Below are positions 51,256 to 54,691 of a stretch of DNA of 54,691 nucleotides, piece by piece. A program made the position numbers and the translations under genes. This DNA is from an uncultured Ruminiclostridium sp. (GTDB taxonomy: Bacteria; Bacillota; Clostridia; Oscillospirales; Ruminococcaceae). The stretch lies in the NCBI GenBank assembly GCA_949878745.1, contig CATLBH010000016.1, positions 1-54,691 on the forward strand, in the 5' to 3' direction. The notes beneath the pieces were generated by a model. It was not told the origin of the DNA. It did not search any database and worked only from the letters and a program-made list of their open reading frames with translations. Numbering within the stretch: the first letter of the stretch is position 1; each line of letters opens with the position of its first letter.

Positions 51256-51813
51256 ATGCAGTATTACGATTGTCCCGACGTAAACAAGGAATATATGCTT
51301 CCCTTATTTGTGTTCAACGTGGGAGTAAACCAGTGGCAGTATCACGTTACTCGCGGCGACGAATTTATCCTCCCACAATTTATCTATTCCACCGAGGGGA
51401 GCGGTACCTTGATATTCGACGGCGAAACGCACATTATCGAGCCGGGCACGGCGTTTTTTCTTCCCGAACACTACCCGCACGAGTATTACTCCAACGGCGG
51501 CGTCTGGGATACCCATTGGGTGGTTCTCGCGGGCTTCGCGGTAAAGGAAACGCTTCACAATATGGGATTCGACAAGCCGCTTGTTTTTAAGCTGAACGAC
51601 ATAAAGCTGATAGAACACCACTTTAAAAAAATGCACGAAGCCATCATAGGCGATAAAATCTACGGAACATTTCGTGCGGCGGGCTTTCTCTACGATTTCC
51701 TTCTGGAGCTTTACCGCCAGTTCGCCGTATTCGGCGCGGAAAATTCGGTCAATCCCTCCGTAATATTGTTCCCCCAATTAAACCTTGCCAAAATCAAGCA
51801 GCATATTTTGTAA
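51256..51813 (+). pseudogene. AraC-family regulator truncated by the IS630 element
   Basis: Residues 1-169 are an AraC N-terminal sensing domain: cupin strands with GSGTLIFDGETHIIEPGTAFF and LPEHYPHEYYSN, then helices to NSVNPS. The frame then enters the IS630 end at 51763 and stops after 16 foreign residues. The DNA-binding domain is gone and is not found on the far side of the element. The product could still fold as a ligand-binding or dimerising domain. Promoter and ribosome site (AAAGGAGCG) are intact. Confidence 0.88.
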
Positions 51814-52894
51814 AAGGAGCATTGAAAAAAGAGGCAATTTTAGAAGGGTTCAACTGCAAGGATTTCAAATGCGAACGAACATTATGCTCCAGTTCTTCTT
51901 TTGACTGTGCAGACGCTTTGCTACCAACAGAACGTTTTAAATCACTGTTCACAAGCTCATCGGGATTATATTCGGGGGCATAAGGCGGAAGGTAAAATAC
52001 TTCAATTTTATCCTTACGTTTTTCAAGCCATTCCTGCACCTTTTTTGAATGATGCACTCTAAGATTGTCAAGAATAAGAAACACTTTCTTTGCGCTGTCA
52101 TTGACAAGCCTTCTCATAAAATCAATCAGTTTATCAGAGTCCATGTTTTCTTTATACAGCACAAATCTCAGCTTGCCTCTCTTGGAAACAGCCGACAGCA
52201 TATTGACTTTGAACTTCTGTGCTTGCGTTCTTACCACAGGTGTTTTTCCCTTAGGCGCATATCCTTTCATGTAGTTACAAGTATTCTGTATATTGGTTTC
52301 GTCACCGAAAAAAATCTCCGCATTTTCAGCATTTGCACGTTCTGTTATGCCGGGAAATTCTTCATTCAACCACTCGTCTATTTTCTTATCGTCCTGTTTA
52401 TAGGCACGCTTTACAGGTCGTTGAATGCTGAATCCCCACCGCTGAAGATAGTATCCGAGTGTGGATAATTTCATTTTTATTCCGTACTTTCGAAAGATCA
52501 ATTCGGAAATATTTTTCCTTGTCCACATACATTCCTTAAACTTTAACTGCATCGGATCTTTATCTACAATTATTTTCTGAATTTCTTTTTCTTCTTCTGA
52601 CGTAAGTATTCTTTTTTCACCCACACTGCGCCCACGCTTTTTGGGCTTAAGGGCAGCCAAACCTACTTCGGCGTATTGGTTCTTGATTGACCTGACGTGC
52701 CTTTCGCTCACATCAAGTATTTCTGCAATCTCACCGTTCTTTTTTCCTAATTTACTCAAACGGACAATACTCTTTCTGATTTGATATTGTTCTTCCGGAC
52801 TTAATTTTACTGCGTTTGTTTTTAATTCATCTTCCATGCTTATATTATATCACTTTTCTTAAATTTTGGCAAGGTTTATTTGGTGTATCAATAT
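51763..52894. mobile_element. IS630-family insertion sequence
   Basis: About 1132 bp. The terminal inverted repeats are ATATTG.T.C.CCAA.TAAACCTTGCCAAAAT and its counterpart (about 32 bases with four or five mismatches). TA precedes the left end, as IS630 elements target TA, but the right end is followed by CA rather than TA. The flanks belong to different genes, so it is not a simple insertion. Confidence 0.9.
51794..52837 (-). CDS. IS630-family transposase
   Basis: 347 residues, single intact frame. The N-terminal helix-turn-helix is KKNGEIAEILDVSERHVRSI with a Pro/Arg linker (KPKKRGRS), then a second winged helix (about 75-140). The DDE domain has IFFGDETN (first Asp near 185), FLILDNLRVHHS (second Asp near 245) and LPPYAPEYNPDEL (Glu near 285). 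It looks active. Confidence 0.95.
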   Translation of the reverse strand: MEDELKTNAVKLSPEEQYQIRKSIVRLSKLGKKNGEIAEILDVSERHVRSIKNQYAEVGLAALKPKKRGRSVGEKRILTSEEEKEIQKIIVDKDPMQLKFKECMWTRKNISELIFRKYGIKMKLSTLGYYLQRWGFSIQRPVKRAYKQDDKKIDEWLNEEFPGITERANAENAEIFFGDETNIQNTCNYMKGYAPKGKTPVVRTQAQKFKVNMLSAVSKRGKLRFVLYKENMDSDKLIDFMRRLVNDSAKKVFLILDNLRVHHSKKVQEWLEKRKDKIEVFYLPPYAPEYNPDELVNSDLKRSVGSKASAQSKEELEHNVRSHLKSLQLNPSKIASFFNAPFTKYAA

Positions 52895-53293
52895 CATTGT
52901 AAATGTTTCTATCAAGGCAAACGATTGTACTTTTATCATGAAATTCGAATCTTTCTGTGACAAGTACACCAATCTGCGCCACATTTGGGAAAGCCAAAGG
53001 GATATATGTATTAAAATCTTCACTAAAAATCACATCAACTAATCCTGGAAATTTTCTTTCAAACTCTTTTTTATATGTAATCCGCCTTCGTAAGTTATCG
53101 GAGTTTTTATTTGAAGAAAATATTCGTTTTCTTTTTCTCTTATTCTTACAGTAATACCATGCTTAGCGCAATACATATTGGCCGTATCGTAATAATAATT
53201 TTTTTGAAAAACTTTATTATTCCACAAAAAAGCAGATTGCATCTTTTTGTATTGTTTTGAATTGATCAAGGTCTTATATTCCTTTTCTATCAT
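52895..53293 (-). pseudogene. CYTH-domain protein, frameshifted and truncated
   Basis: The gene begins MIEKEYKTLI with the ExExK signature of CYTH (CyaB/thiamine triphosphatase) proteins, then GITVRIREKENEYFLQIKTP. A run of six T (53067-53072; A on the coding strand) where seven would be needed shifts the frame. The correct continuation KKEFERKFPGLVDVIFSEDF and VLVTERFEFHD..IVCLDRN lies in the next frame. The 3' end is then cut by the IS630 terminus at 52894. CYTH enzymes act on triphosphates or make cAMP. The start overlaps the carrier protein gene by 20 bases. Confidence 0.8.
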
Positions 53294-53531
53294 ACAACAA
53301 CCCTTCTTTTATTTTTAAGGATTTTTCAATTATCTCCGCCAAGTCCCTAACCGTATGAGCATTTCGAATGTCAGCTAAATAATCATCCAATTCTATTCCC
53401 AAATCCTCTTCAAATCCAAAAATTAAATTTACAATACCCAACGAATCAATACCTGTATCTCGATTTAATACTGTTTCTTCTGTCACCTGGCGAAAATTTT
53501 TTATTATTACATCAACTACACTTTGATTTAT
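53274..53531 (-). CDS. Stand-alone acyl/aminoacyl carrier protein
   Basis: About 85 residues if read from 53531. NRDTGIDSLGIVNLIFGFEE carries the DSL phosphopantetheine Ser, followed by IELDDYLADIRNAHTVRDLAEIIE, a four-helix carrier fold. It follows the ligase fragment with a 3-base gap and its AGGAGG lies in the ligase 3' end. The codon nine bases from AGGAGG is ATA, not ATG; the first conventional start is GTG at 53486, which would lose helix 1. So it either uses AUA or has lost its start. Confidence 0.8.
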   Translation of the reverse strand: MNQSVVDVIIKNFRQVTEETVLNRDTGIDSLGIVNLIFGFEEDLGIELDDYLADIRNAHTVRDLAEIIEKSLKIKEGLLYDRKGI

Positions 53532-53534
53532 AAA

Positions 53535-53846
53535 TTATTTCCTCCTGTTATAATATGCGTTTTTAATTTCATCCGGCCACTGAATCGGATCAAAACCACA
53601 CTGACATAAAAATGCTATTACCCATCGTTCTATTCCAAAGACTATACATCCGGTAACGGTATCATTTCTATTAGCAATTTTTATATTAAATGGATGTGTA
53701 AAAGCCGATCCATGCAAATTAAATGACGCTACTGAAATTCTATCTTTAGGAGACCAATTCAATTTAATTTCATATTTATAATCTGCCTTTCTGCGAAAGG
53801 CACCAATCGGGTAATGAAAAGTGCTTTCGCTAAACAAAATAAAGTA
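53535..53846 (-). pseudogene. C-terminal fragment of an amino-acid:[carrier protein] ligase (SerRS-like)
   Basis: About 103 codons remain. Strands FRRKADYKYEIKLNW and SVASFNLHGSAFTHPFNI lead to the class II motif 3 segment TGCIVFGIERWVIAFLC, ending CGFDPIQWPDEI. GxxxGxER with the HGxDPxxWP tail is typical of truncated seryl-tRNA-synthetase homologues that load amino acids onto carrier proteins. The adjacent carrier protein gene supports this. The N-terminal two thirds, with motifs 1 and 2, are missing, replaced by the IS110 end at about 53838-53850. Confidence 0.78.
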
Positions 53847-53854
53847 TTATAATA

Positions 53855-54054
53855 GTAGTTGAGAAAAAACGGTCAACTACAGAAACCGAGGAGGAGAGTG
53901 GCGGGGCTGAATAGCGGCAACCCCGCATATTTATATGGTTCGTTACTCCATTAAGGCATCAATAAATGGCGCAAACAGCCCGTAAACTTATCTCTTTCAA
54001 ATCGTCTCGATTTTGCCGGAGGAACAGTCAATGCCGTTCTTTCTTAATTTTATT
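53855..54054 (+). ncRNA. Predicted IS110 bridge RNA
   Basis: The non-coding left end begins with the hairpin GTAGTTGA-gaaaaaacgg-TCAACTAC (53855-53880). A second stem GCGGGG...CCCCGC (53901-53926) has a 14-base loop, then further weak stems reach the transposase ribosome site. A TATAAT lies at 53848-53853 with no good -35 in the flanking DNA. That matches the IS110 rule that a strong promoter forms only when the two ends join in the circular form. Bridge RNAs of this group lie at this position. Exact ends and loops are inferred. Confidence 0.65.
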
Positions 54055-54068
54055 GAGGAGGTATGTTT

Positions 54069-54691
54069 GTGGCATTTAAAATTTTTAGAAAAAACTGCTG
54101 CGGTCTTGATGTTCACAAAACTTGGATTTATGCCTGTATCGGAATAACCGATTCCAACAATCGTACGGAATACAAACAAGCGCACTTTTCTTCTTTCTCC
54201 AAAGGACTAAACGAATTAGCCGAATGGCTTGCAAAATACTCCTGTACCGAAGTCTGTATGGAATCATCGGGTAAATATTGGATCCCTGTTTTCAATATTC
54301 TCGAAAAAACCTGTTGGGTCACTCTCGCTCACCCCAAATATACCAAACAGCAAAAGGGCAACAAAACCGACCGTAAAGACGCAAAATGGATATGTGATCT
54401 GTTTATGTTTATGTGCGATATGATTAAGCCAAGTTTTATCCCACCGCCGGATATACGGCAGCTTCGTGATCTTATGCGATTTCGTATGAAATTGGTAAAT
54501 CAAATTACCGGTATGAAAAATCGTGCTTTTAATTGTCTTACCGTTTCTAATTTAAAGTTGGATAATGTGTTTTCAGACGTTTTTGGTAAATCCTCACGTT
54601 CCATTATTCAACAGATTCTTGATCATCCCGGTGAGACTTTTGATGTGTCATCATTTGTTCATAAACGCTGCAAAACGCCTATTGAGGAAAT
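54069..54691 (+). CDS. IS110-family DEDD recombinase (partial)
   Basis: 207 codons are visible. The N-terminal RuvC-like domain starts CCGLDVHKTWIYACIG with the first Asp of the DEDD set, then VCMESSGKYWIPVFN with the Glu, and NKTDRKDAKWICDL with the remaining acidic pair. This is the IS110/IS621 recombinase pattern. The C-terminal Tnp domain with the catalytic Ser is outside the window. GTG at 54069 is chosen because GGAGG is seven bases ahead; ATG at 54063 is only one base from it. Confidence 0.93.
   Translation, partial: MAFKIFRKNCCGLDVHKTWIYACIGITDSNNRTEYKQAHFSSFSKGLNELAEWLAKYSCTEVCMESSGKYWIPVFNILEKTCWVTLAHPKYTKQQKGNKTDRKDAKWICDLFMFMCDMIKPSFIPPPDIRQLRDLMRFRMKLVNQITGMKNRAFNCLTVSNLKLDNVFSDVFGKSSRSIIQQILDHPGETFDVSSFVHKRCKTPIEE

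Follow-up and report, generated by a model that had tools for sequence, protein, structure and literature searches.

Remains of an amino acid:carrier protein ligase, carrier protein and CYTH operon between two insertion sequences in a Ruminiclostridium genome

Amino acid:carrier protein (aa:CP) ligases, enzymes with Cys/Glu/Cys zinc ligands and without a large N-terminal tRNA-binding domain, entered the literature in 2010, chiefly from proteobacteria. In that year Mocibob reportedly described Bll0957, a glycine:[carrier protein] ligase from Bradyrhizobium, together with its kin, and to our knowledge the use of the amino acid loaded by these enzymes is still an open question. The butirosin side chain, for its part, depends on the carrier protein BtrI and the transferase BtrH. 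Here we analyse a related locus in a 54,691-nucleotide stretch of DNA from an uncultured Ruminiclostridium sp. (assembly GCA_949878745.1, contig CATLBH010000016.1, positions 1 to 54,691; the whole stretch is called the window below). Close to the right edge of the window, the minus strand carries the end of a ligase gene resembling seryl-tRNA synthetase (SerRS), then a carrier protein gene and then a CYTH gene, and our analyses support the original prediction, made from the letters alone, that this trio is a relic operon encoding an aa:CP ligase, a carrier protein and a CYTH protein.

With Bll0957, which belongs to work cited in passages of PMC2922099 and PMC9437257, the Firmicute ligases considered here share a class II SerRS-like core, a nearby carrier gene and candidate zinc ligands. 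They differ in having about 80 additional N-terminal residues ahead of the aligned part, and the rhizobial neighbours are an acyl carrier protein, an acyl-CoA dehydrogenase, a ligase, a DUF1839 protein and a glycoside hydrolase, with no CYTH protein named. The butirosin system, whose BtrH is also treated in a passage of PMC10318531, has in common with ours a BtrH-type papain-fold transferase and an aminoacyl group on a carrier protein (predicted here), whereas loading would here be done by a SerRS-like ligase, and a CYTH protein is present in some loci. The CYTH proteins themselves share the tunnel fold, the ExExK motif and other active-site positions with known CYTH/triphosphate tunnel metalloenzymes (TTM; YjbK-like 2gfg and 3sy3, and YgiF 5a60), but the ligase-linked ones form a separate group and are often linked or fused to carrier-protein machinery. 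TTM-like proteins within natural-product clusters are mentioned in passages of PMC10946740 and PMC5453526, namely Orf2 for nucleocidin and PhtB for phaseolotoxin (the likeness of PhtB having a Phyre2 confidence of only 54.1%); an aa:CP ligase or carrier pairing is not described in those passages. The open-licence PubMed Central literature yielded nothing joining CYTH with BtrH, with or without a carrier protein, nothing joining CYTH, acyl carrier protein and biosynthetic gene cluster, nothing joining carrier protein ligase, seryl-tRNA synthetase and biosynthetic gene cluster, and nothing joining CYTH with Ruminococcus bromii; CYTH and nonribosomal peptide come together in a single paper there.

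What is left of the ligase are its C-terminal 78–80 codons (53535..53770, minus strand), which include class II motif 3 as well as a cysteine of the zinc-ligand type; the N-terminal three quarters of the gene have been lost to IS110. The fragment matches the models NF002120 (1.1e-17) and NF005479 (1.2e-13), scores that lie far under the whole-protein cut-offs because the query is a fragment, and the PDB structures 3w3s (1.1e-12) and 4h2w (1.6e-5). As had been foreseen, a profile search with the SerRS-like ligase family hits it, the best matches being aa:CP ligase and type-2 SerRS proteins. Over 80 aa, it is 93.8% identical to P0004, an intact ligase of 378 aa (against 527 for 3w3s) whose residues 83–373 align to aa:CP ligase, while type-2 SerRS ties on fold; the family has a class II SerRS-like catalytic core, related in sequence as well as in fold. 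The candidate zinc ligands Cys156, Glu222 and Cys342 are kept in 32/32 ligase relatives, and only Cys342 is retained in the window piece, where the neighbouring Gly344 of P0004, again Gly in 32/32 relatives, is replaced by Val.

The identification as a SerRS-like motif 3 piece was thus borne out, but the original prediction had read the entire open reading frame (ORF) 53535-53837 (minus strand) as ligase, and this we reject. The ORF is present, and its upstream part is IS110 sequence: that DNA is common to another copy on contig C31 of the same genome, and three diverged IS110 copies (on C13, C61 and C26) start matching at query bases 24–25, corresponding to window positions 53768-53769. Because the other copies of the IS110 end match up to about this point, the first 22–23 residues must be assigned to the element. 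Untrimmed-fragment matches in two members of the genus (G016 and G008) were set aside, since they cover residues 2–25 and 6–25 only and by inference represent the same IS end. The element lies at 53769..54691 on the plus strand, comprising its left end and the start of the transposase (from 54063; DEDD_Tnp_IS110, 3.2e-24), within which the contig terminates. In all, the left end is present five times in the genome, as whole or partial copies, the window copy counted; at C31:30655-31070, an IS110 transposase gene ends and is followed by the reversed left end of the same element, so that two part copies, or one rearranged copy, meet there.

The second gene (53274..53531, minus strand) encodes, as predicted, a stand-alone phosphopantetheine carrier protein with the DSLG serine. 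Its match to Pfam PP-binding (5.9e-4) scores 20.5 bits, just below the cut-off of 20.8, and it is nearer to the carrier proteins of other ligase loci, with 10 matches, the best at 2.6e-17. The body of the protein is intact, but a usual start codon is absent at the expected site: no in-frame ATG, GTG or TTG occurs between the ligase stop and 53486. The 3-base gap to the ligase proposed earlier therefore presumes an ATA start, whereas the 20-base overlap between the carrier and CYTH genes is confirmed. The identity of the third gene was also correctly called (Pfam CYTH, 4.8e-10). Its N-terminal part of 84 aa (53042..53293, minus strand), with the EKEYK motif, RIR and a K, matches residues 1–84 of the CYTH protein P0199 at 81%; near a run of A at about 53067-53072 the frame shifts, and the continuation in the other frame (52893..53084, minus strand) matches P0199 residues 71–134 at 77%. 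The matching runs up to the inverted repeat of an IS630-type element at 52863-52876, the gene reaching about 52880. In CYTH relatives, the ExExK motif is well kept (each Glu in 39/40, the Lys in 40/40). The active site of the window protein is incomplete, as the gene is frame-shifted and cut by IS630 ahead of the distal Glu residues. The 84-aa frame-shifted ORF (P0226) is listed on six contigs, making it unlikely that the frameshift is an error of a single assembly.

All three genes are damaged, and the state of decay suggested at the outset is plain. With a truncated ligase, a carrier gene without a usual start and a CYTH gene both frame-shifted and cut, the pathway cannot run in the window. 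The locus is likewise broken on both sides by insertion sequences, and it is AT-richer than its surroundings, as had been claimed: G+C is 0.309 for 52880-53769 and 0.460 for 1-51780, where 0/509 windows of 890 bp are as low. The IS630-type element itself (51781..52876, minus strand) has 14-bp inverted repeats at 51781-51794 and 52863-52876 and a transposase at 51794-52837 (DDE_3, 1.7e-41). On its far side, outside the operon, lies the ligand-binding (cupin) half of an AraC-type regulator (51256..51780, plus strand; AraC_binding, 7.5e-14), apparently also cut by IS630; the reading frame of this half (51256-51813) continues into the element, and the two flanks of the element are different genes.

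Intact relatives of the trio occur elsewhere. Scanning genome contigs, we found 17 ligase loci in 16 other genomes, and in six of these loci the ligase has a CYTH gene no more than 6 kb away (L012, L013, L015 from Ruminococcus bromii YE282, L016 from Clostridium tepidiprofundi DSM 19306, L019 and L027). Ligase, carrier protein and CYTH stand together in 5/17; at L013 the carrier gene was not found at the locus. Neither of the outcomes named in advance as refuting the prediction, an unrelated best match of the fragment or a trio that never recurs, was thus observed. The L012 count was entered by hand, as the best match of its fusion protein is the BtrH query, and two stretches repeating the L027 and L019 regions (L051 and L052) were excluded from counts and tree. 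In five of the six loci, the CYTH gene is spaced by −20 to 15 bases from cluster genes on at least one side, and in the sixth it stands 9 bases ahead of the exporter ATPase. If the 16 CYTH genes in this set of genomes were placed at random, 0.068 would be expected near a ligase (P 1.3e-10), a value to be taken as a guide only because the loci are related to each other. A crude comparison with a jitter control points the same way: among the best 120 of 354 ligases, 120 of 150 CYTHs and 45 of 45 BtrH matches, five ligase–CYTH pairs have a longest contig of identical size, where 0.46 are expected, as do 11 ligase–BtrH pairs (0.15 expected) and no BtrH–CYTH pair among the listed proteins. Two of the five, P0008–P0202 and P0013–P0196, belong to the same ligase and CYTH groups as the window genes. 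Fusions are known from single examples: a 529-aa protein of L012 joins BtrH_N and CYTH, and P0201 carries a CYTH and then a carrier domain (2.3e-9). A further candidate, P0219 (CYTH with ABC2_membrane_6), was set aside, as it lacks the CYTH end and the start of the permease profile and may be a deletion join. Judged from these gene neighbourhoods, the association of ligase and CYTH is real and recurrent, though not universal. In R. bromii, an intact set of CYTH, ligase, carrier and BtrH-type genes lies at L015:9412-12394, and the CYTH type found there, P0170, has 1000 contigs listed for it, so that gut metagenomes may commonly contain the cluster.

The ligase-linked CYTHs are also set apart from other CYTHs by descent. 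In a tree of 50 proteins, the 13 linked CYTHs, the window's included, fall in one group of 31 rows (96/84), and eight CYTHs located elsewhere in the same genomes fall outside it; nine such comparisons were attempted, L061 being uncounted as the wrong ORF, of 79 aa, had been taken. The rows were picked from profile hits, and the linked group also holds rows of unknown linkage; the long-branch rows P0232, P0235 and P0249 were dropped, and an alignment (A4) that had placed CYTH rows onto the BtrH part was left unused for modelling. A Streptococcus sanguinis CYTH (P0224) also lies within the linked group, where it pairs with the CYTH–carrier fusion P0201 (95/82). The ligase tree places each of the 12 linked rows inside one 31-row group, though with weak support (84/88). 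Over 12 pairs, ligase and CYTH distances are correlated with r 0.57, a value reached in 38/20000 permutations and to which shared host descent can contribute.

The ligase, carrier and CYTH genes belong to a larger, undescribed type of cluster, and the genes beyond the trio in relatives include those of a BtrH-type transferase, a nucleotidyltransferase and an ABC-2 exporter. Across the 17 loci, we counted carrier proteins in 11, ABC-2 permeases in 11, NTP_transf_5 in nine, an AMP-ligase in five and a PP-transferase in four. By similarity, a BtrH-type transferase is present in 9/17, with L027 as an additional weak case (8.8e-5); if that match is counted, none of the six loci with a nearby CYTH is without one. 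A 354-aa protein upstream of the ligase in L008 and L011 was tried as a BtrH-like candidate and rejected, having no Pfam match even at E 10 and a BLASTP value of 0.60 to the BtrH protein of L016; the BtrH match in L011 is a self-match and was not counted. Plasmids gave 91 records with a match, all below 60% identity. More distant aa:CP ligase loci on plasmids share a core of ligase, carrier and a papain-like protein, the last being DUF1839 in Rhizobium gallicum and BtrH_N in Priestia koreensis and Alkalihalophilus pseudofirmus, and no feature named CYTH appears in the incomplete gene tables of the four regions viewed. On this evidence, the CYTH gene seems to have been added within part of the Firmicute branch. 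On the A. pseudofirmus plasmid (L069, 8067-19047), the BtrH-type, ligase-like and carrier genes precede genes for 3-hydroxyacyl-CoA dehydrogenase, acyl-CoA dehydrogenase, HAD-IIIC and acyltransferase proteins, a set which we take to resemble the extender-unit pathways of the zwittermicin type. In a genome of the same family as the window's (G331, L009:8271-19868), a distant ligase lies beside AMP-ligase and condensation-like proteins, carriers and a ketoacyl-synthase-like protein, the last names being assigned by eye.

The distribution of these genes is sporadic. Searches of the window's own genome, covering the ligase profile, Pfam CYTH and BtrH_N, found no further ligase piece at E <= 1e-20 (a short N-terminal piece under this limit could escape), the window CYTH as the sole match to Pfam CYTH, and 0 matches to BtrH_N at E <= 0.01. 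A P0199-type CYTH is present in 1/71 genus genomes and the ligase in 1/394 of the order sample, in both cases the own genome itself; counting the own genome, the ligase is found in 4/297 of the family sample at a loose limit and in 6/391 of the class sample. One genome, G124, has a weak ligase match (E 0.003) in a stretch (L010) outside the analysed loci. On viral contigs, 31 stretches fit a pattern, none encoding a relative. Low G+C and sporadic presence fit the earlier claim that the operon was acquired, and it was probably borrowed; the argument is one from composition and distribution.

We consider it likely that an operon acquired sporadically, and now dead, left this remnant, and that it served to make a metabolite for export with the help of a carrier-loaded amino acid and a CYTH triphosphatase. 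In the intact relatives, the stand-alone SerRS-like ligase would adenylate an amino acid and load it onto the phosphopantetheine arm of the dedicated carrier; a PP-transferase is sometimes encoded nearby. A BtrH-type papain-fold transferase would hand the aminoacyl group to an acceptor, the dedicated CYTH/TTM protein, by prediction an active metal-dependent triphosphatase, would work in the same pathway, most likely with the acceptor or the product in triphosphate or nucleotide form as its substrate, and the ABC-2 exporter would take the product out. That the ligase is instead a type-2 SerRS, serving translation or a tRNA-dependent pathway, is highly improbable: the top scores of the fragment are indeed to NF002120 and 3w3s, and the fold comparison is a tie, but the relatives measure about 370–390 aa against 518–527 for type-2 SerRS, a carrier protein accompanies the ligase in most loci, and the full-length profile gives its best score to the aa:CP ligase. 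It is about as hard to believe that the relic still works in part, for instance through a carrier protein serving another enzyme; the intact body and DSLG serine would allow it, but a usual start codon is lacking where the gene should begin, the upstream operon was removed by IS110, and neither BtrH_N (E <= 0.01) nor another ligase piece (E <= 1e-20) was found in the genome.

Other readings concern the place of the CYTH protein in the operon. Several observations weigh against tying it to the ligase: 10/17 ligase loci have no CYTH in the stretch examined (among them L014, which stops 0.16 kb past the ligase, and L011, which starts 1.8 kb before it), the more distant ligase loci (L009, L043-L050, L053 and L054) have 0/11 in the stretch examined, and at L018 the ligase is separated by 18.6 kb from a CYTH of the same group, which sits beside unrelated genes. 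That the neighbours met by chance, or that the CYTH gene is a loose passenger of an island, is nevertheless very unlikely given six cases in 17 against the 0.068 expected, the tight spacing to cluster genes, the fusions and the separate CYTH subfamily. Less easily dismissed, yet still rather unlikely, is a CYTH protein that regulates the cluster, as a cyclase or as a sensor of nucleotide or polyphosphate level, and is no enzyme of the pathway: the fold includes class IV adenylate cyclases (with a weak TIGR00318 match, 0.011), and adjacency and fusion data cannot separate an enzyme from a regulator.

Returning to the CYTH protein as a triphosphatase of the pathway, we tentatively propose a wider picture, in which Firmicutes from gut and environment, R. 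bromii included, could share undescribed clusters where ligase and carrier feed a BtrH-type transferase, the CYTH triphosphatase processes an acceptor that bears a triphosphate or a nucleotide, and an aminoacylated phosphate or nucleotide product is exported. The recurrent CYTH partner predicts a phosphate-bearing substrate in the pathway and suggests, for the first time, what a subgroup of the YjbK-like CYTH proteins may do, and with Clostridium tepidiprofundi DSM 19306 and R. bromii, culturable carriers of the cluster can be named.
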